Positions 3,241 to 61,172 of a stretch of 64,000 nt of DNA are shown here, in pieces. The position numbers and the translations under genes were made by a program. Each line of letters begins with the position of its first letter. Position 1 is the stretch's first letter. The notes below the pieces were generated by a model. The model did not search any database. It was not told the DNA's origin and saw only the letters and a list, made by a program, of their open reading frames with translations. Source of the stretch: Allacma fusca (Eukaryota > Arthropoda > Collembola > Symphypleona > Sminthuridae); NCBI GenBank assembly GCA_947179485.1, contig OX359246.1, positions 558,001 through 622,000 of the forward strand, in the 5' to 3' direction.

Positions 3241-3885
3241 ATAATTATATGATCTTGAACTTCGACAGATGACATTGTCGAGGACGACAATTACCCAGAA
3301 GAGGAATGTTACGGATATATTATAAATAGAGTAGAATAAGCATAATCTAAGTCAGCAAATAGTTTAGAAGGTCGTAAGCAGAAGCTACGTGAGACCAAAC
3401 GCTGACCTAACATAATCATAAGTAAAGGAAAGGAAATGATTCAGATTATTTAATAAACAATAAACTAAGAATAGGATAAGATTAGATTTAGATTAAGACA
3501 CGTAGACTAAGTACAAGTTCTAATCACGACTTCAAGCAAGCAACATCAGAGGAGCCGCACCTAGAGTCCATTCCCTCCGGGATGGATCTCAACAGGTAGC
3601 AAGCGGGGTGACATGAAATCGGAGATTTCATGAAGAAGAGATTCAGACTTCAAATTCTATTTGTGTTAAATGTTAATTGTTCAGTGTAAATTGTATCAGT
3701 TTAGGAACAATAAATCGGATCAATAAATTATAAAAACGAACTACACACAGAATTCATTAGTTCCATTTATTCATGCGTTTCCAACAACATCGGATTCCAG
3801 GAATTCAGGGGATGGAACACCCGAACCTAGGCTACATTATTATTACCCACACACCATCCATACCCGGGTAATACCGTACATAACA
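3241..3885 (+). mobile_element. Ty3/Gypsy-type LTR with a short internal flank (3' LTR or solo LTR)
   Basis: A purine-rich tract (AAGAGGAA) is followed at 3307 by TGTTACGG, a typical Gypsy LTR start. Just before it is a GTCGAGGACGAC stretch like that found ahead of the 3' LTR in many arthropod Gypsy elements. A TATA-like TATAAATAG follows soon after the start and AATAAA occurs near 3708. The right edge is uncertain: TAACA near 3885 mirrors the start, but an earlier end near 3789 is possible. No second copy lies in the window, so the rest of the element, if present, lies upstream of position 1. Age and completeness cannot be judged. Confidence 0.5.
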
Positions 3886-4478
3886 ATATAACTGAACATT
3901 ATTTTCGGGACGGGACTGAGTCAATATAACTGAACATTATTTTCGGGACGGGACTGAGTCAATATAACTGAACATTATTTTCGGGACGGGACTGAGTCAA
4001 TATAACTGAACATTTTTTTCGGGACGGGACGGGGACAGAAACAGTTGTCCCCATTAGATTCGGGACGGGGACAGCAAAATTGTGCACATTATTTTCGGGA
4101 TGGGGAGAGAACAAATTGTCCCCATTTTATTCGGCACGGGGTCAGAAAAAATTGTCTGCATTTGATTCGGGGCGGGGACAGAAAAAATTGTCCGCATTAT
4201 ATTCGGGGCGGGGACAGAAAAAATTGTCCGCATTATATTCGGGGCGGGGACAGAAAAATTTGTTCCGATTATATTTGGGACGGGGACAAAGTATTTCTCC
4301 CCATTTTTTTCCTGATGGAGACAGAAAAAATTGTCCCCACTTTATTCAGGACGGGATCAGAAAAATTATTCCCCGTTATATTCGGGGCGGGGACAGAAAA
4401 ACTGGCCCCATTATACTCGGGACAGGACGGGGACAATAAAATTGTGCACATTATATTCTTGAGGGGTACAAAAATATT

Positions 4479-5094
4479 GTACCAATTACTGTGACATAAC
4501 CTCTACTTCCCGGAGGAAATATTAATTATGTTGCACAGGTTCGGCGCGGAGTTATCTTAAATTAACCTAATGAAAGATGTAAATAATTGAGCTGCAATAA
4601 AATAATAAAATGACTAATTCGTTCAATTGCTAATACTTTATTCTCTGATCAAATATATAGCTATAATATATACATAAACTTGAGATGAAATCATCCAACA
4701 GTCTCGTGACTATGATTCACTCGTTTTGTTCATATTACATCGTAATTCTACTATTAAAACTATCTACATTCTATGTAACCTTAGGTATATAACTACATGT
4801 CACATTTGCAGTGGAGCAATATTCTTCCCTCCGAGTGTTCACTACAACCACATAAGAGAGTTGAATAAGCGCACACACTTACATGAGTCATATGGGTACA
4901 TAGTCAGAGAGGAACTTGTGAGCGATCGTGTTTTTCCTCTGCCTGATACATATTCTCCATGTGTAACATAGACACATTCCTTAGACAAGTTTCTTGTCTC
5001 ATTTATGCTATCGAACGGCCCTGCTCCGAGTCCACAATATCTAGGTTAAGTACTTACATACACAAATTCCATGCGTAAATTACACGTATGTAAC
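4479..5094. other. Unassigned DNA between two blocks of the GGGAC array
   Basis: About 600 bp of ordinary AT-rich sequence separates the first and second blocks. It may be a further insertion, but I found no clear terminal repeats or target duplication. An 81-codon frame at 4726-4971 has no recognisable content. Confidence 0.35.
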
Positions 5095-5701
5095 ATTACA
5101 TTCGGGACTTGGACAAAACAATTTTTCCAATTATATGCGGGACGAGGAAGAAAAAATTGTCCGTATTATTTTCGAGACGGGGACCAAAATTGCATCAATT
5201 TTTTTCGGGAAAGGGACAAAAAAATGCGTGTCAATTATATTCCGGGCGGGGACAGAAAAATAGTGTACATTATGTTCGGGAGGGGGGCAGAAAAAATTTT
5301 CCCCATTATATTCGGGACGAGGACAGAAAAAACTCCCCATTATATTCGGGCGGGGACAGAAAAATTTGTCCGTTATATTCGGGAAAGTGACAGAACAATT
5401 TGTACGAATTGTATTCGGGACGGGGATAGAAAACACTTTCCTAAATATATTCGTGACGGGGACAGAAACATTGTGCACCAAAGATGCATAATTGAATCAC
5501 AGTACGTATATCCTTCCTTTAAATGATATCAAAATATTCTCCTACACGTCTTATATCTAGTACAAATGCCAATCTCGAGCCCTACTTATATGCATATATT
5601 TTAAAATCATGGACAACTCTGCCTTCCTATATATTCCTATATACGTTCCTTTGACATACAACACGCATTCCTATGCCTATCCTTTAAAGAAACGTTGGGA
5701 T

Positions 5702-6635
5702 TAGTGCATCGCATGGGTACAAAAATGCTGTACCTGGACCTGTACCTGGACCCAAATAGTGGGTACTGGCAAAACTCGTACCCATACCCGTACCTGATTA
5801 AAAGTACCCATTAAATAAATGTTGGTACGTGGACCTGATTATTTTGCAAGTAGTGCGTACCTGTACCTGAATTTTACCCGTACCCAAAATATACCCAATA
5901 TATGGACCTGTACCTGAAATTTTTTCCTGCGTACCTGTACCCAATCAGGTACTTTAAAAACAATGACTGTAAATGACTCAACATGATGACATTCGATGAT
6001 TTACATCACAGCAATTACAAGCTATAGACAATTTTTATTAATATCATTTTTGCAAAGCTAGACATCCTAATGGAACTATAACTTCAATGCATCTGCAGTT
6101 TTGCCATCTTCAATTAAATCTTCCACTTCTAGGTCATCCTCCATAACCACAAAATCACTTAACTTCATTTTGATTGAATCACAAGTGGAATTTGTAATTA
6201 CATGTACTTATTGCTGGCACGTTGTCTAAGTTGGTTAACCATCTCTATTGCTTAAACGTATGCTTTTCAAAAATTACGATGCATTCCTGAAAACACGCTG
6301 AATAGCAAAATAAATCTTTAGATCGGAGAGAGCCACGTACTACACTAGATACCTCGTAAGATGGATTTCTGTTCGTAAAAGTACCCAGATTTTCAGGTAC
6401 TAATTTATCAGGTCCAGGTATATTGGAAGCTTGTACCTGTTCCTGTCAGGTACAACCCAAACACTTCCAAGTTTGTACCTGTACCCCACCCCCGGTTTTG
6501 TACCCAAAATTTGGGTACATATAGCTAGTACCCATAAAATAACCATTCAGTTTGGGTACTTAAACAGAGTACCCATTTTGGACCTGTACCTGTACCCAAA
6601 TACTCAGGTACTACCCGTACCCATGCGATGCACTG
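5702..6635. mobile_element. hAT-like non-autonomous element (word GGTACCTG/GGGTAC), nested
   Basis: The ends form an 18-bp inverted repeat, AGTGCATCGCATGGGTAC, and the flanks are the perfect 8-bp duplication GTTGGGAT (5694-5701 and 6636-6643). Both terminal thirds are packed with GTACCTG and TACCCGTACCC words in both orientations; the centre is ordinary AT-rich DNA. There is no transposase. It lies inside the element at 5479-7010 and is therefore younger than it. Confidence 0.85.
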
Positions 6636-6652
6636 GTTGGGATAACATATAT

Positions 6653-6751
6653 CGTTGGCTAAATTCTAAAATTTACCATTTTAAATGGAGAGCCCATTTA
6701 AAAAGCACGTGTTACGAAATGAAAATGGTACCTTTTAAAATTTAGCCGACG
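6653..6751. repeat. Short inverted repeat (arms 6653-6682 and 6722-6751)
   Basis: Two arms of about 30 bp pair with few mismatches around a spacer of about 39 bp. They lie just right of the nested element and inside the TTCCTATCC element. It could be a tiny foldback insertion or part of the host element. Confidence 0.5.
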
Positions 6752-8265
6752 ATTTCGTCATACAAAAGTCAATGTAGACCTTCTCAGAGCCTTTCCTATT
6801 TCTTACATACATACTTTATGATTTGCCAGCCAACTCCTACCCTTCCTATTTGTACGTTTGCTCGGAAGGAGGCTTCCTATCCTATCCCTGCTTTTAATTA
6901 TTAGATTTTTCATGCCTTCCTTTTCCTACACATAAATTCTTGCAAACTACGTTCCTATCCTATAAATATGCCTATTTGTAGGATCCGTGTAGGAAGAAAA
7001 TGCATCTTTGTTGTGCACATTATAATCTTGACGGGGACGAAAATATATTACCAATTTCATACGGTTCTTGCACAGAACAATTTTTTACATTATATCCGGG
7101 ACGGGGACCAAAATTGTACCAATTATATTCGGGAAAGGGACACAAAAAATGGTTTCCATTATATTCGGAAAGGGGACTGAAAAATTGGTTCTTATTATAT
7201 TCGGGACGGGGACAGAAAAGATTGTCCCCACTTTATTCAGGACGGGGTCAGAAAATTTGTCCCCGTTATATTCGGGACAGGACAGAAAAATTGGCCCCAT
7301 TATGTTCGGGACGGGGACAGAAAAAATTGTTCCCTTTATTCAGGACAGTGTCAGAAAATGTTTCCCCGTTATACACCGGACAGGACGGGGACAAAAAATT
7401 GTGCAAATTATATTCGGGCGGGGACAGTAAAAATTGTCCCCGTTATATTCGGGACGTGACGGGGACAGAAAAATTGAACCCATTATATTCGATACGGCAC
7501 GGGGACAATAAAACTGCATATTATATTCGGAAAGGAGACAGAAAGATTGTCCGCATTATATTCGGGACGGGACGGGGATAAAAAACGTGCCATTTATATC
7601 CGGGGCGGGACAGAATAAAATGTCCCCGGTATAGTCGGGACGGGCCGGGGACCAAAAAATTGTCCCCATTATATTCGGGACAGGGACAATAAAACTGATC
7701 ATATCATATTCGGGACGGGGACAGAAAAAGTTGTCCCGAGTATATTTGGGACAGGGGCGAAAAAACTGTCCTCATTATATTCGGGACGAGGACACAAGAA
7801 TTGTCCGCATTATATTCGGGAAGGGAACAGAAAAATTTGTGCCCATTATATTTGGGAAGGGGACAGAAAAACTTTGCTTCCATTATATTCGGGATGGGTA
7901 CAGAAAAATTTGTCCTCATTTAATTCGGAAAGTTGACAGAAAAATTAGACCCACGTTATATTCGGGACGAGGAAAGAAACGATTGTCCCACAATACATTT
8001 GTGACTGGGTCAGAAAAATTGTCCCCGTTTTATTCGGGACGGGACGGGGACAGAAACAATTGTCCCACATTACATTCGGACGGCGACAGAAAAAATTGTC
8101 CCGATTATATTTGGGACGGGACGGGGACAGAAAACATTTTCCACATTATATTCGGGACTGGACGGGGACAAGGTTTTTGTCACCGTGTCCTGATTGTCGG
8201 GACTAGGGACCATGGTTTGGAAAAATATCGGGACCAGACGGGACAAGAATTTTGTCCCCAATAGA

Positions 8266-26059: not shown

Positions 26060-28726
26060 ATGGCCTCCCTAGGAATACAATGTGGTGCGACGAGGTCCTT
26101 TGCTATTTTGAGGTGGGAGAACCAGGAGATCCGCCTCCAGTTCCCGCCAGCCAATTACAAACTACTGAGCCGCTCCGAACTCCAGGAATTCATCACCCAG
26201 GTCCAGTTCTCCGTTGAGGAGTCCCTTCCCGCTCCCTTCACAGTCCGTCGAGTGGGCATTGGAATGCCGGGAATTTTAAACGATGAACACCGAAATGTAA
26301 GAAATCAACTATTATTTGCTGGCGGGTTTTTAAAAAACGTCAAATAATTACCGCTTTTACGTAAAATTCTTAAGCTGGATTTTGCATTTCATGTAAATAT
26401 GTATATATATATATTTACTTTACCAAGTGATTGTGCTGCTGTAATTTTTGCCTTCCTTGAAGGTCATACACTAAATGTGTTTCCAGACTCTGTACACGAG
26501 GCATGTAATTATTTATATGCATCAAACCCAGCGAAAATATATAATTACATGTAGAAATTAGATAGTAGATATATACATTCATGGAAGGAGGTTGTGGTAG
26601 GATATGGGCTGAACTTGAACTTTGTCTGAAATAATAATCGCATGTTATGATGATTGATAAGAACAAGTAGATAGTGTTTTAACACTCATGTATATATAAT
26701 TATGTACATATACAGAGTGATACAAGCTGTTTTATTTCAAGGCAAACCCGAGAAAATAGCATAAAGTAAGGACTAAATTGGGAAAAAATACGTTATACAT
26801 TGAATTTTGATTAACTACCAAAACGCAAACCACTGTAGAAACTTCATCCTTAAAATAGAAGCTTATGTTTGTAACGGTCATTCTAGTAAATCCTTGTATA
26901 GTGCAATTTTTCCATAGCTAAGGAAAAATGTCACAATTTACAATTATTTTGACATTTTTTACCACAGGTAGTGAAATCAACTTTGCAGAATTCCTTTCCA
27001 AATCTGGAAAACGTTTGGGTGGGAAGTGACGTCCAAGTGGCTTTCAAATGTCTTCAGGAGATTCCAGATGAGAAACATGTCAAAACATTGATCATCGCTG
27101 GAACAGGCTCCGTCTGTTGCGCAAATAGCCCTGCGCAAGACCCAACGGATGTCGCAGGACTTGCGAAGATCGGCGGGAACGGTCATATTTTAGGGGACCG
27201 AGGGTCTGGTTACGCCATTGGTCTGGCCGCAATTCGTGCGTCATACCGCCAATTAGAATACACCGGTAACTCTCCTCTTCTCGCAGCCATTAAATCATAT
27301 CTCCGAATTGACACAATCCCGGATTTGATTACCTGGAGCGTGGGCGCCTCAAAAACGCAAATTGCATCTTTAGCAAAAACGGTCATTCAGACATGGACGC
27401 AGACGAAGGACGAAGTTGCTACCGCTGTTGTTCAGAATGCAATCCAGGATTTGACTCAAGACTTTACGCAGTTAGTGAAGAAACTGTCCCTACAAGACGG
27501 GACCAGGGTCCTCTTGGGCTTTACGGGCAGTTTGCTAACCAAAAGTCCGGAATACGCCGCTGCTTTATCCGAGAAAATACGGGCAGGGCTCCCCAATGTA
27601 GACATCGAGATTTTAAAGGACACTGTGAAAGGAGCCCTGATGTACACAAGAGAGGAGACTCAACAATTGGAGGAGATTTCCGAGGAATCCATCTTGCGGA
27701 AAAAAATATTGCCCGTTCTGACCTCTTTGTCCGTGACGGAGATGCGGAATCAGGGGTCCAAGGATTTGGACAAGATGCTTGTTTTGGAAGGGATTGAATT
27801 GATGCTCAAAGAAGAGAAAAAAATTCATGTGGAAATTCGAAAGGAAGCGGGGAAGATTGCACAGTTGGCTTTAAAAATCGCGAAGGCTTTTAAAAATGGC
27901 GGACGCTTGATTTACGTGGGCGCAGGGTCTAGTGGAAGGTTGGGGATTTTGGATGCAGCAGAATGCCCGCCAACTTTCAAAGCCCCCCATCATTGGGTTC
28001 AAGGAATTATTGCTGGGGGCTCTGCTGCTGTTTTTAGAGCTGTTGAAGGCGCTGAAGATTCGACAGTGGGAGGGGCATTGTCCATTAGGGCGCGAGGGGT
28101 CAATGAAAAAGATGTCGTTTTGGGTAAAATTTTATTTCAAATGTTCTATTTACGCTGATATCCTCCACTGTTACTCTTACAGTTTGGGGAGCAATTTCTC
28201 TGGTACGACTTAAATTTGTCATTGGATTGAAATTATTGTAGGTATCGCTGCAAGTGGTCGAACCCCCTTCGTATGGGGTGCTTTGAGTGAAGCTATTAAT
28301 GCCAAAGCCTTCACTGCTTTCCTCACATTCAATCCCAACTTGGAAATCAAATTGCCCCTCAACATCGTCATGACGTTTAACGTAGGTCCAGAGGTCCTCA
28401 CAGGAAGTACTCGTCTCAAGTGTGGCACTGCCACCAAAATCATCCTCAACATGCTCACAACCCTATCCATGGTCAAATACGGGAAAGTCCTCGAGAATTT
28501 AATGGTGGATTTGAATGCTTCAAATGAGAAGCTCCGGGAAAGAGCTGTGAGAATTGTTCTGGCTATTTTGAATGCTGAGGAGCCCCGAGTTACGGCTGAA
28601 GAAGCAAAAGCAGCTTTGGAGGAAAATGAATTTGACATTAAAACTGCTGTTCAGAATTTACGGGGCCCAGACTACGAGGATGAGTACCAACATTCCAAAT
28701 ATTTTACCAACACTAATGGCATATGA
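26060..28726 (+). CDS. murQ: Fusion of N-acetylhexosamine/MurNAc kinase-like domain and MurQ-type MurNAc-6-P etherase
   Basis: Exons 26060-26296, 26968-28123 and 28242-28726 join in frame (donors GTAAGA and GTAAAA; acceptors ACCACAG and ATTGTAG) to give 625 residues. Residues 1 to about 310 match the BadF/BadG-NAGK kinase fold: a GIGMPG turn, Asp100 in VGSD (the expected catalytic base), AGTGS at 123-127, and a GGNGHILGDRGSGYAIG stretch. Residues about 320-625 match MurQ: GAGSSGRLG (397-405), AECPPT with Glu411, AVEGAEDS with Glu439, GIAASGRTP across the exon 2/3 junction, a GSTRLKCGTA signature and a helical C-terminal tail. In bacteria MurK phosphorylates MurNAc/GlcNAc and MurQ cleaves the lactyl ether of MurNAc-6-P to GlcNAc-6-P and lactate, so the fusion would cover both steps. 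The N-terminal phosphate-binding loop reads GIQCGATRS, lacking the usual acidic residue and one glycine. The introns show it is a eukaryotic nuclear gene; bacterial origin is inferred. Vertebrate GCKR is a distant MurQ relative but lacks this kinase part. Confidence 0.9.
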
Positions 28727-28793: not shown

Positions 28794-28799
28794 AATAAA
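28794..28799 (+). terminator. Polyadenylation signal AATAAA
   Basis: A canonical AATAAA lies 67 bp after the stop codon of the kinase-MurQ gene and is followed by a T-rich stretch. It is the likely cleavage/polyadenylation signal for that gene, which converges tail to tail with transporter gene A. Confidence 0.6.
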
Positions 28800-55901: not shown

Positions 55902-55950
55902 TTAATCAATGTTATAGTGCTTCTTCAATTGGTCCTCTTCAGCCAAAGCG
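55902..55950 (-). CDS. Detached 3' end of the TMEM45-like gene
   Basis: On the minus strand, beyond the LTR element, the reading frame of the TMEM45 last exon resumes directly after the target duplication for 14 codons (LAEEDQLKKHYNID) and a TAA at 55902-55904. The bases 55947-55950 are the duplicated AGCG. This shows the element landed inside the coding part of the last exon. Confidence 0.8.
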
Positions 55951-56397
55951 TGTAGAAGAAGTGGGCTTTACTATGGAATATTGTGCGGACTGCTGTAAAG
56001 TCGTATAACAATAATTATTATAAAGCCAAGCTAAAGCCACATATCTTTCTATAATGTCAGCCAATAAGTAGTAAATAAGAATGTATTTAAGAAATATAAA
56101 ACAATAATGTGAGTTGCTGATGAGTGAGCCAAAGCGAGGTGAATGCCAATAATACGGGAACGCCAACCAGAGTTTCCAACTAATAACAAGTAGAGTTTAT
56201 TAATTAGGATCAGGACGCTACTTTGGTATGGTAGAGAGTTCCATCCTTCTCGCAGCTCCAGATTGCACTGAGGCTGTCCTCAGAATACATGTCAGAGGAA
56301 GACTGGAGAATTTATCTCCTTTACATATTTAAAGTACCTGCCTTAGATTCACTAAGGCAGACTACTATTTACATAGCAAGGATACCCTCTCGTTACA

Positions 56398-57569
56398 CTC
56401 TCCCCCCTGAAAATTAAAAATTCTTCGGATTTTTATAATTTCAGGCTAGTAAAGTAAAGGTGTCGTATTTAGGTTCCAGCGCTTGTTGGAATAATATACA
56501 ATCAATTGACTATTTTGAGGTTCTCAAATTAATTTGACAATAAACTTGGAAAATAATACAAAATTCAATAAATCATTACATCATTGGAAATAAAGCAATT
56601 TTTAGAAAAAAAAATGATGAAAAACGATAAATGGTGGATTCGTCCATTAAGGTCGTAGTAGCAATCGTTTCTCGTTCGGTTCCTGAGACCAGTCATTACA
56701 GGTTATCTTGAGATTGTCTTGAATCACATTGGAAAATGCTCAAGACACGCTTAAGCAATTGCCAGACAAAACAATGACGAAAGTGCAATGGTTGCACCAT
56801 GGCAAAACAAAAACAAATATAGCTAATGGTCCCCATTAGCGAAAACGTAAGTGAAGATCAAAACTAAATAATTAATTTGAAGTTTGGGAAACACCCGAGG
56901 GCGTGAATATTTACAAATAGATTGCAAGCATGAGACCCGCTCGTGCTTTGCAGATTAAAACTTTGCCTATTTTAAAATCTTAACCTAATATTCATGGCCA
57001 GAATAAAATTAAAAATACATGCAAAACCTATTTACACAAAACTAGTATTTACAAAAATAATTCATTAAAATTGACAAAATTACATTGGTTGAACTAATAA
57101 TTTATTTGCCTTGCACAAATCTTCGTAGACAAAGTTTTTCCGTAGAAATTCTAAGGTATGAAATCTAATAACAAGAAAATCAAAATTAGCAACTAACTTT
57201 TAATAAAATTTTCACTTTCACCTACACAGACAATCAGTATTTGAAACTTCTTGTAGCTTCACAAACGAAACTTCACAAACTCGGCCGGCATTTAAATTTT
57301 AATGTTGCAACAAAAATTATAGCATTTCGCTTAATGCTAGTGCGCACAGAACGCTCCTCACGTTCTTTAACCCAAATGTAGTACATAGCTACAGGTTTCT
57401 CATCATGTTCCTCACATGAAATAATTGTATTTAAAAATATAATACAAACTTAAGGCTCCTCACCTTAATTGCAGAATCTAGCTGCGTAATAAACGCTCCT
57501 CACGTTTACATATGCTACGCATAGCATATCTCGTTTAAAAATAATTTAAAATTCAATTTGTAAACTGAG
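56398..57569. other. Non-coding interior of the LTR element
   Basis: About 1.2 kb between gag and the downstream LTR with no recognisable coding content; the polypurine tract lies at its end (56398-56409 on the minus strand). Confidence 0.6.
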
Positions 57570-58487
57570 CTATCCATTCTCAGACGAAGTAGCTAAGGGT
57601 GGTAGATCTATTTTGCCTAACTTATCTAACTTCCGTGTTTTATGCAAACTACCCAAAGCATCTTCAGCTGCTGCTATCAAAGAACCTGTTGTTTGGTAAG
57701 CCTGATCTGGATCCCATTTAATGATTTGGTAAATCCGGTAATGCAAACCATGATATGCCCTACGCAATCTATCACTTAAGGACTCTGCAGGATCAACTTG
57801 TAAGGCTACAAACATCATCTCATAAACAAAATCAGCTATTGACTCATCATGTTTCTGGGTTCTTGTTGCCAAAAATCTAACTCTGTCCTGCCTGTCATAG
57901 ATTGTGTCAAATTCAGATGCAAAATCAGCTTGGATTCCTATCCAGTCCGTAGCAGTGGTAACAGTATTGTCGTACCATTTCAACATATCTCCTTTGAGAA
58001 TTCCTCCAAGCAAATAAACATATTTATCAGCAGTGTGATGCTGCAACTTAAAATATTTCTCTACTTGGCTAAAAAAATATTCGGAGGTCATTCTGTTCCT
58101 ATCGTATGATGGAATCTGCATATTAGAATTTGCTAAAATGATACTGTGGTTATTTGGTACTGTTGAATTCCCGGCTAAATTTGCCTGATGATTGCATACC
58201 GTGACTAATTGCTTTGCTGCTAATGCAGCTTGTTCGGCTATTCTAAGGTAATTGCCACTATCATTCTTAGCCGTCTGCATAAAATGTTGGACAAATGCCT
58301 TCTCTGGCTCACCTAAACTTTGATACCAAGCATCAGCCATCTCGGAGTTACGACAACTATTTAAAATCTGTGTGTTAGTTGTTGGAAGCACTCTGGCTTG
58401 TCTATTCAAATGTCTACGAGCTCGGTCAGTATTTAAATCAACAGTTTGATTCCCGTGATTGATTATGCCTTTGTCCGCCTTACTCAT
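57570..58487 (-). CDS. Gag of the LTR element
   Basis: A 305-residue frame starting MSKADKG. Residues about 120-285 have the retrotransposon Gag capsid pattern: a SEYFFSQVEKYFKL helix, KGDMLKWYD, ADFASEFDTI, and a late helix region with AYHGLHYRI. No zinc knuckle is evident. The product would package the element's RNA with enzymes provided in trans. Confidence 0.8.
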   Translation of the reverse strand: MSKADKGIINHGNQTVDLNTDRARRHLNRQARVLPTTNTQILNSCRNSEMADAWYQSLGEPEKAFVQHFMQTAKNDSGNYLRIAEQAALAAKQLVTVCNHQANLAGNSTVPNNHSIILANSNMQIPSYDRNRMTSEYFFSQVEKYFKLQHHTADKYVYLLGGILKGDMLKWYDNTVTTATDWIGIQADFASEFDTIYDRQDRVRFLATRTQKHDESIADFVYEMMFVALQVDPAESLSDRLRRAYHGLHYRIYQIIKWDPDQAYQTTGSLIAAAEDALGSLHKTRKLDKLGKIDLPPLATSSENG

Positions 58488-59787
58488 TTACAAATATAAA
58501 TAATTTCGTATTGAACATGAACTTGCTTAAAAATACGAATGCAGGAATAATCATTTGAAAAATTACGTAAATGTACCAGCGCAGTGGTACTTACAATTAG
58601 GTATCCTTTTACCCAAACGAATGTATTTGATTTTAACTAAAATGCTACCTTGATGCAAATATGGCGATTATAAGCCTCTCTTCAATTAGTTAAAAAACAA
58701 ATGAAGCCTATCATTCACTTTTGAAAAACTTCGAGTACAATCTGGAGCACTAAACTATTATCTCTTGAAACTACTGGCTTTATGTAAAAATACCACTTTA
58801 CAAGAATGTTTGTCCCTTACGTATATCCACAATATATAACAATCTTTAATATAACCTTATGGATTTACTCTGGCATTCTCGACAAAAAAGAATGTATATT
58901 ACGTTTATAACATGACAATCATAAAAAACTAAACTTCGTTTCACTTCGCCCCTAAGAACTAACAATAGTACTAAACTCAATATGACTGATACAATTAACA
59001 GTACATATAACTTGAAAAAGTATACTATCTTAAAACATATTGCTGACCCTGAACGCACTTATTATAACATCAATAGGCGTTTTAAGTTATTGCATGCCAA
59101 AACAAATCTATAATTTATTTTATTGTTAGTTTCTGTGAAAAAAAACTAATGTCTGAACTGACTAATTTGGTTGTAGTGTAGAAAGCTCGAGTTCACTCAA
59201 GCTGGTATAATTAAAGACGGCTACGGATCCACCGAGCCTAAGTCTTACCAAAACCGCAAGATAAATAAGCGAATCAAAAACAAAATCTGAACTCGGGCCT
59301 CGAAATCCAAAAAAACAACGGACGCAGCACGGTCGCCAAGTGTAGAAGAAGTGGGCTTTACTATGGAATATTGTGCGGACTGCTGTAAAGTCGTATAACA
59401 ATAATTATTATAAAGCCAAGCTAAAGCCACATATCTTTCTATAATGTCAGCCAATAAGTAGTAAATAAGAATGTATTTAAGAAATATAAAACAATAATGT
59501 GAGTTGCTGATGAGTGAGCCAAAGCGAGGTGAATGCCAATAATACGGGAACGCCAACCAGAGTTTCCAACTAATAACAAGTAGAGTTTATTAATTAGGAT
59601 CAGGACGCTACTTTGGTATGGTAGAGAGTTCCATCCTTCTCGCAGCTCCAGATTGCACTGAGGCTGTCCTCAGAATACATGTCAGAGGAAGACTGGAGAA
59701 TTTATCTCCTTTACATATTTAAAGTACCTGCCTTAGATTCACTAAGGCAGACTACTATTTACATAGCAAGGATACCCTCTCGTTACA

Positions 59788-61172
59788 AGCGTACGCACTG
59801 TCAGTAAACAAATGATAGCTCTTGTCTGTCCTTAATTTTTGAAATTTGCGGAACTGAAAGCTTCCAACGCGAAACAACACGACGAGAGAAAAAATCATGG
59901 TCCATGCAAAATAAACTGGCACCAACTTTATCTGTAGACGCAAATAACGCAACACCGTGGAATCATTTTCGCATACATCCATTTGCGCTCCATTGCTACT
60001 CCATTTGCAAGTTAAAGGGGGGCAAATTACAAAGACTATTTCTAAGGTGATTAAATTTTTTAATTACCATTTCTTCGCTGTGGTCGTCAAATGACTCGGG
60101 GTCGTTCGGAAAAACAGGGTGGAGCAATTCTGCAGCGACGAAGAAATAAGCGCCGTTCGCAATAATGAAGAAACATCTGGTCAGTGCGGCGAGAATACTT
60201 TTGAGGTGAGCCAATTCAAATAACGTGCTAACCACAACTCCAATAATTATGTAACAAAGATGTGTGTGTATCTGTAGAAAAAAAACAAATTTATATAGCT
60301 AAATATTTTATTATACCGACCGATTATATAAATTACTAAGGAACTTACCGATACGTCGAATTCTGAACGTTCCAAGTGAAAATAAAAGAGAATTCCGAGG
60401 GATGCAAAGGAAATGGCGAAAATCAAGTACTCAGTTCCTTCTGGAATTTTCCAATTCTGAATTCTCAAAAGGATTAACACAAAAACCAACTCAAAGGGGG
60501 CGAACATAGAGAGATGATGTAAATTGCTTGTGGCCCATTCCAGGTCTTCGAAACAAAGTTCAACTGCCAAGAATTGAAATAATAACGCAACAAAAATTCA
60601 ACACTCCAAAATTTGTAAGTTTATTTATTCCAAATACATTAAATACATCAAAAGGGTATTCAACCATATTTATTTTGGGGTAAATGGCTATATGTATGAA
60701 AATTTTCCCGCTCACCAAATATGCCTATTAACGGGAAGAGGATCAATGCATACAAGACGATGGGTTTCCGGGTTTTACTCACAAACACCAATGTATTTTT
60801 GAAAGATCCAGGTCGGACTAATAATGATTTGTAATACCTACAAGAGATATATACATTTATAATTTTATTCATTTCCAAACTAAAACTAACCATAAAATTC
60901 ATACGAAAGACTGTACATCAGGATACATAATTAAATATATATATACATTATTTATAATTATATATATAGTACTGTTATGCATTCCGAACAAATACAATGT
61001 AAGTCAACCAAATGGCACCCACGAAACAAAGGGTTCCTGGAACACTGTGTCTAACAAATCCTTTGCTCACAAATAGCGGGTTTTCAAAATTTGTCAAATT
61101 ACCAACGGGCAGAAAATTAAAACCGTGAAGCAATTTTTTGTACATTTTAAAGTAAAAACAAATTGAGTTCAA
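59788..61172 (-). CDS. TMEM45 (DUF716)-family membrane protein, interrupted in its last exon
   Basis: Clear exons are 60716-60837, 60349-60563 (ending at a GTAAGT donor) and 60068-60271. A first exon within about 61030-61172 contains KGFVRHSVPGTLCFVGAIW, like the TMEM45 N-terminus, but its donor and start codon are uncertain (ATG at 61172 or 61145). The last exon runs from about 60005 or lower down to 59788; its acceptor could not be phased with confidence. Family marks are GILFYFHLE followed by IHTHLCYIIIGVV (the HxH-type pair) and a late LFELAHLKSILAALTRC helix with ELLHP. The product should be a multi-pass membrane protein of unknown biochemical role. The coding part of the last exon is split by the LTR element: in its present state the frame reads ten codons into the LTR (to 59755) and stops, replacing the native 14-residue tail. 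Confidence 0.8.

Follow-up and report, generated by a model that had tools for sequence, protein, structure and literature searches.

A three-exon kinase-MurQ fusion gene of probable verrucomicrobial origin in the springtail Allacma fusca

The kinase-MurQ gene and its chromosomal setting

A 64,000-nucleotide stretch of the genome of the globular springtail Allacma fusca (referred to here as the window) contains a three-exon gene whose predicted product joins a sugar kinase-like domain to MurQ, the etherase that acts on the 6-phosphate of N-acetylmuramic acid (MurNAc), a sugar of the bacterial cell wall. The window spans positions 558,001 to 622,000 of a 75,608,127-base contig (OX359246.1); the assembly comprises 91 contigs that total 392,743,791 bases. 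The genome report describes a long-read assembly in which chromosome 2 measures 75.61 Mb (PMC10427803). That the host is an animal, as an earlier note written from the sequence alone had supposed, is borne out by at least 150 scored matches to the arthropod cuticle domain PF00379 in the genome. The kinase-MurQ gene is a nuclear gene of this springtail, and a search of the whole genome at an E value of ≤10 turned up no further copy.

The exon structure was assessed with a script that tried GT or GC donors and AG acceptors around both proposed introns and listed products longer than 600 residues. Six products were obtained. One is the 625-residue protein with GT/AG borders that the earlier note had described, at the same coordinates and junctions; the five alternatives are 609 to 627 residues long. 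Four of the five use a different donor for intron 2 and disrupt the conserved IAASGRTP motif of MurQ, while the remaining one (618 residues) leaves MurQ intact and loses seven kinase residues where the bacterial relatives shown are gapless. Reading from exon 2 into intron 2 leads to a stop at 28156-28158, and the length of this intron also shifts the frame. Both exon junctions are bridged without gaps in the eight bacterial relatives shown, and the GC content of the coding sequence is 48.0%, versus the lower values given for the two introns in Table 1. The AATAAA hexamer that follows the stop codon is weak evidence for a polyadenylation signal, because this hexamer occurs 206 times on both strands of the window.

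The two-domain composition is supported by Pfam, NCBIfam, and PDB matches that far exceed chance, in agreement with the earlier note. Residues 334-604 match the NCBIfam MurQ model PRK05441 with 332.2 bits (cut-off 168, E = 2.4e-99), pass the PRK12570 cut-off of 255 with 297.8 bits, and match the PDB MurQ structure 4s12 (E = 2.1e-67). The four MurQ signatures quoted in the earlier note (GAGSSGRLG, AECPPT, AVEGAEDS, and GSTRLKCGTA) are present in the product. In the first half, residues 63-309 match the PDB MurNAc/GlcNAc (N-acetylglucosamine) kinase 8zo3, with an E value of 3.1e-17 for the whole protein and 1.2e-17 when the kinase half is the query. Residues 120-305 match the Pfam BadF family PF01869 with 34.9 bits, barely above the cut-off of 31.5, and the NagK equivalog NF046058 was not reached (53.7 versus 370 bits).

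TABLE 1 Features of the kinase-MurQ gene (positions in the window)
Feature	Coordinates	Strand	Content
Exon 1	26060-26296	+	Residues 1-79; N-terminal lobe of the BadF/NAGK-type kinase; QxGxT here, D/ExGxT in relatives
Q7 codon	26078-26080	+	In exon 1
Intron 1	26297-26967	+	671 nt, phase 0, GT..AG, 30.6% GC, 10 stops in the exon 1 frame
Exon 2	26968-28123	+	Remaining kinase, linker, first half of MurQ
Kinase residues of exon 2		+	D100 (codon 27028-27030); GTGS, residues 124-127; D156
MurQ residues of exon 2		+	E411 (codon 27961-27963); E439; E442 (codon 28054-28056)
Intron 2	28124-28241	+	118 nt, phase 1, GT..AG, 32.2% GC; interrupts the conserved VVLG|IAASGRTP of MurQ
Exon 3	28242-28726	+	Second half of MurQ: IAASGRTP, GSTRLKCGTA, NLMVDLNASNEKL; stop TGA at 28724-28726
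AATAAA, possible polyadenylation signal	28794-28799	+	68 nt past the stop

Bacterial fusions and the origin of the gene

The genomes of 84,980 prokaryote species were scanned for relatives, and the following refers to the best 80 of at least 590 confirmed stretches. The top matches are single-frame kinase-MurQ proteins of Verrucomicrobiota, and the nearest of these are about 38 to 42% identical to the springtail protein over residues 4-605. Loci L009 to L016 are 38.0 to 39.6% identical across nearly the full length. A verrucomicrobial locus (L018) and one from Hydrogenedentes (L050) gave partial matches, and kinase and MurQ genes lie adjacent or near to each other in Poribacteria, Paenibacillus, other Bacillota, and rhizobia.

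Many Verrucomicrobiota carry kinase and MurQ in this order within a single frame. In the verrucomicrobial class that includes genome G003, 136 of 384 genomes matched at an E value of ≤1e-70, and the remaining 248 stayed without a match at this threshold. Counted by eye from the match table, 130 of these 136 span both domains (three with one internal stop) and six cover MurQ only. In the phylum of G003, 54 of 387 genomes matched at ≤1e-30, with 20 of these matches spanning both domains free of stops and one more with an internal stop; a BLAST search added two further fused open reading frames (ORFs), L120 and L121. The two-domain order that the earlier note proposed to look for in bacteria is thus widespread in Verrucomicrobiota, and a fusion made in the animal was rejected on this ground. 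The springtail gene shares its domains, their order, and its single frame with the verrucomicrobial fusions (e.g., L009-L016, L094-L112, and L138-L163), among which it nests; unlike it, the bacterial genes have no introns and keep the acidic residue of DxGxT. Fusions L050, L120, and L121, the last two from the phylum of G003, are placed elsewhere in the trees, so such fusions may have had more than one origin. We found no name for the verrucomicrobial fusion enzyme in the openly licensed papers that were searched, and the present gene brings this widespread enzyme to notice.

Around the bacterial fusions, no peptidoglycan operon was seen in a Pfam search of 18 flanking ORFs at five loci. Most neighbors are unrelated genes, among them those for a helicase, an oxidoreductase, an RNase, and a carboxylase, and three flanking ORFs of L016 had no Pfam match at all. 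A LysM protein beside L013 and a GH123-type hydrolase beside L011 could bear on the cell wall or on amino sugars. Plasmids gave 122 matching records, none of which covers 80% of the query at one place; the 30 listed match the MurQ half only.

In a concatenated tree of 39 rows (30 of the 55 rows of a larger fusion tree plus 9 outgroup rows), the springtail protein falls inside the verrucomicrobial fusion clade with support of 100/98. Its sister there is fusion L141 (96/94), as it is in the 55-row fusion tree (94/95). In an approximately unbiased (AU) test on the concatenation, a place outside all verrucomicrobial fusions was rejected (P = 0.005). The kinase half alone joins 16 verrucomicrobial fusions in a set of 17 rows (99/99). 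The MurQ half lies among the verrucomicrobial fusions (98/90) and adjoins L016 (99/86) in a tree of 54 of 115 rows, from which L018_solo, L116_solo, L050_FUS, and most stand-alone MurQ rows had been dropped; in a quick MurQ tree of all 115 rows it lies in a set of 29 rows with 27 fusions (support 98). The half trees were made without L141, which was added later, and the window gene is the sole eukaryote in the trees.

The gene has a chromosomal setting, introns, and a position nested within bacteria, as expected of a gene that passed from bacteria to an animal. Many transferred genes are present in springtails, with 809 described for Folsomia candida (PMC5490193). The trees are best explained by a single transfer, from Verrucomicrobiota, of an already fused gene that then acquired two introns. 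We consider it probable that the Allacma fusca gene arrived in this form, directly or via an unsampled host, that it gained both introns, and that its product would serve cytosolic salvage of MurNAc. The introns were gained after the transfer or in an intermediate eukaryote. The bacterial acquisition proposed in the earlier note therefore holds through the nesting of the gene in the trees, with the change that the fusion itself is bacterial and wide in Verrucomicrobiota.

Several results pull against this origin. In AU tests on single halves, a place outside the verrucomicrobial fusions was retained (P = 0.065 for MurQ and 0.072 for the kinase), as was a grouping of the kinase half with other kinases (P = 0.157), and the groups compared in the AU tests were chosen after the earlier trees were known. 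In the separate phylogenies that the earlier note had called for, both halves fall with the verrucomicrobial fusions; the single-half tests retain an outside place. The springtail branch is also long in all trees and measures 1.42 changes per site at its tip in the concatenation. A frame of 625 codons that stayed open over 1.42 changes per site argues for selection.

Among other origins, bacterial contamination or an assembly artefact has a negligible chance of accounting for the gene, had nothing in its favor, and was rejected. The gene carries two spliceosomal-type introns, its flanks hold eukaryote-type repeats and exon-like transporter ORFs, and it lies on a contig of chromosome size (75.6 Mb) that was assembled from long reads according to the genome report (PMC10427803). 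It is also highly improbable that this is an old animal or eukaryotic gene that descended vertically and was lost in most lineages. Such descent gains some room from the fact that this genome alone represents eukaryotes in the searches, and is opposed by the nested position within a bacterial clade, by a separate NAGK-like exon in the genome, and by a study of ants that takes murQ to be bacterial and presents its transfer as previously unreported (PMC13320244). An old and widespread animal gene family, the outcome that the earlier note said would remove the argument for transfer, is not what the trees show, with the window gene as the sole eukaryote included.

Predicted activities and the use of MurNAc

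The MurQ half retains 49 of the 50 columns that are ≥95% conserved among 112 MurQ rows, including E411, E439, and E442; a two-unit protein (L018_solo) and a broken one (L116_solo) had been dropped before these columns were counted. E411 and E442, 31 positions apart, are Glu in all of 52 bacterial fusions (L120 and the duplicate L089 were omitted from this comparison), and we take them to correspond to the catalytic Glu83 and Glu114 of Escherichia coli MurQ, which have the same spacing. Mean identity of the MurQ half to the 52 fusions is 53.1%. Residues 334-604 match MurQ structures (PDB 4s12, 4lzj, and 1nri) across the domain; the springtail MurQ differs from these in sitting behind a fused kinase, in being found in an animal, and in falling below the cut-off of one MurQ equivalog model. 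Because the etherase residues are intact, the MurQ half is probably active, and etherase activity is likely.

The kinase half retains D100, N32, GTGS, D156, and G266, and D100 is Asp in all 52 bacterial fusions. D100, N32, GTGS, and D156 were set against D95, N32, T116/G117, and D141 of Tannerella MurK, which are sugar- or phosphate-binding residues, D95 being the catalytic Asp (PMC10465942). The springtail protein thus keeps the catalytic Asp, the GTGS motif, and the sugar-binding Asn of the MurNAc/GlcNAc kinases of the BadF/NAGK group (PDB 8zo3; MurK, PMC10465942), and differs in that DxGxT has become QxGxT. The kinase retains 33 of 45 columns that are ≥85% conserved in 27 of 31 fusions (without L018, L050, L120, and L121), one of the 45 columns being the start Met set by the script; the thresholds and row sets differ from those of the MurQ count. 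Mean identity to the 52 bacterial fused kinases is 27.9%, and the highest is 31.6%.

Several features speak against a role in MurNAc salvage. At the acidic position of DxGxT the springtail has Q7; the 51 bacterial fusions that have a residue at this position all carry Glu or Asp, as do 44 of 44 sequences of a wider kinase set. Residue 70 is Pro where all 52 bacterial fusions have Ala, residue 150 is Asn where all 52 have Trp or Arg, and kinase identity is 6.3 points (1.45 standard deviations) below the bacterial trend for the identity of its MurQ half. The MurQ half in turn narrowly missed the TIGR00274 equivalog cut-off (286.5 versus 302 bits). Neither GH25 lysozyme nor NamZ was found in the springtail genome at an E value of ≤0.001, in a six-frame search made exon by exon in which genes with short exons may be missed, so acquired enzymes do not explain a source of free MurNAc. 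The kinase half, judged by its residues, may be active, weak, or lost.

Phosphorylation could also come from the animal itself. The NAGK-like exon lies on contig C5 and matches animal NAGK (PDB 2ch5) with an E value of 1.1e-16; a native NAGK rests on this one clear exon, because the neighboring stretch gave no NAGK match. The fused kinase half is a distant relative of animal NAGK (2ch5, E = 1.8e-4), and the possibility that it is the animal's own NAGK was rejected in view of the separate exon on another contig. Since MurNAc is a substrate of human NAGK, which also phosphorylates muramyl dipeptide at C6 (PMC9477735), a native NAGK could supply MurNAc-6-phosphate without the fused kinase. The kinase step may thus be weak or shared, given both the Gln at the DxGxT acid and the animal's own NAGK-like exon.

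In the proposed salvage route, animal enzymes would break wall fragments of eaten or invading bacteria to yield MurNAc, and the fused kinase, by ancestry of the MurNAc/GlcNAc type, or the native NAGK would phosphorylate it to MurNAc-6-phosphate. The MurQ half would then cleave the lactyl ether of this compound to give GlcNAc-6-phosphate and D-lactate, and ordinary animal enzymes would carry GlcNAc-6-phosphate towards fructose-6-phosphate and amino sugar metabolism. The glucosamine-6-phosphate isomerase family has matches at two places in the genome, and three exons match Amidase_2 and probably belong to peptidoglycan recognition proteins. Expression, both activities, a cytosolic place, and a dietary role of the protein are inferred. 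We suggest, with rather more doubt than confidence, that a single polypeptide gained in a single transfer provides a complete two-step bacterial pathway from MurNAc to a normal animal metabolite, that the kinase works with Gln, and that a microbe-eating arthropod can thereby use a peptidoglycan sugar without gut bacteria.

Other functions must be weighed against salvage by a two-step enzyme. An etherase-only protein is on balance unlikely; in this reading the animal NAGK makes MurNAc-6-phosphate, and the kinase half either works poorly or has turned into a structural or regulatory element. It draws on the loss of the DxGxT acid, on the poorer retention of conserved columns in the kinase than in MurQ (unequal thresholds and row sets), and on the NAGK-like exon together with the activity of human NAGK on MurNAc and muramyl dipeptide. 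What opposes it is that the frame and length of the kinase half are preserved and that D100, N32, GTGS, D156, and G266 are all kept, although an inactive domain should have lost some of them over such a branch. A regulator is much less probable still, indeed very unlikely: here the MurQ half would sense a sugar phosphate and bind a kinase, as vertebrate glucokinase regulatory protein (GKRP) does. Pfam GKRP_SIS_N scores 65.1 bits (cut-off 27) and GKRP_SIS_2 scores 30.3 bits over residues 373-435 (cut-off 27), and GKRP is a distant relative of the MurQ half. These scores are far below the 332 bits of the MurQ model, PDB MurQ chains reach 230 to 233 bits versus at most 77 in one search and 85 in another for GKRP, the springtail protein has one MurQ unit where GKRP has two, GKRP-like_C stays at 21.9 bits under its cut-off of 27.7, and the etherase residues are retained. 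A GKRP-type gene was rejected on the scores and the single unit. Vertebrate GKRP is not known to have a kinase domain or an etherase role.

A defensive role is improbable as well, if less so than a regulatory one. It would consist in the cytosolic removal of phosphorylated muramyl sugars, as an immune or tolerance device instead of for food. An immune, antibacterial role has been argued for murQ of Camponotini ants (PMC13320244), muramyl dipeptide acts as a danger signal in mammals once it is phosphorylated (PMC9477735), and the genome contains the three Amidase_2 exons noted above. Against defense, no secretion signal was seen on inspection of the N terminus. The substrate of MurQ is, moreover, the free phosphorylated sugar, and we know of no signaling role for free phosphorylated muramyl sugar.

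To our knowledge, animals are thought to recognize and break peptidoglycan without feeding on its MurNAc. A bacteria-derived, open kinase-etherase gene with introns makes such feeding testable in a springtail, and it indicates that prior fusion of its enzymes lets a pathway reach an animal through a single transfer. In eight Camponotini ants, a murQ gene from Mollicutes, expressed in all eight, has been called potentially unique to those ants (PMC13320244). Like the springtail gene, it is a murQ of bacterial origin that has become part of an arthropod genome; it differs in its donor and in that no kinase is mentioned in the part of the ant report considered here, whereas the springtail has a kinase-MurQ fusion from Verrucomicrobiota. 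The springtail gene is a second and different case of murQ in arthropods, which points to two or more separate entries, the donors being Mollicutes for the ants (PMC13320244) and Verrucomicrobiota for the springtail. Supplementary lists of transferred genes aside, we found no report of murQ or of a kinase-MurQ fusion in Collembola in the openly licensed literature, and the main texts of three springtail papers contain no mention of "muram" or "peptidoglycan" (PMC5490193, PMC9460274, and PMC5644144).

Other features of the window and the genome

Two bacterial ORFs found among the relatives have two separate MurQ-like matches each and are possible GKRP-like two-unit proteins: one verrucomicrobial (L018:831-2687, + strand, 619 residues) and one planctomycete (L049:1263-3026, − strand, 588 residues).

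Downstream of the kinase-MurQ gene, the − strand of the window holds an array of exon-like ORFs at 29530-50503 with weak matches to the major facilitator superfamily, all below the Pfam cut-off. Two copies lie ~14.6 kb apart with 83 to 94% identity, and a third copy is 61 to 64% identical. One transporter-like ORF of the window had no match in a PDB search; the exon-like ORFs presumably resemble MFSD8/CLN7. A gag-like ORF (57570-58487, − strand) that scores below the Pfam cut-off is flanked, within 55950-59639, by a pair of 300-nt direct repeats listed as 100% identical, and repeats and ORF together are perhaps a young long terminal repeat retrotransposon. Minisatellite arrays with a unit of 35 to 38 nt occupy 3884-8170 and create open frames, as long as 209 codons, that are probably spurious. 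An exon-like ORF at 59996-60298 (− strand) has a weak match to DUF716 (24.3 bits versus a cut-off of 25).

Elsewhere in the genome, the chromosome-size contigs C12, C5, and C8 contain five more full-length matches to a 328-residue query of cytochrome c oxidase subunit I (COI), much like that of the mitochondrial contig C91, and a decayed COI match lies at C8:64648006. These nuclear COI copies are probably nuclear mitochondrial insertions.

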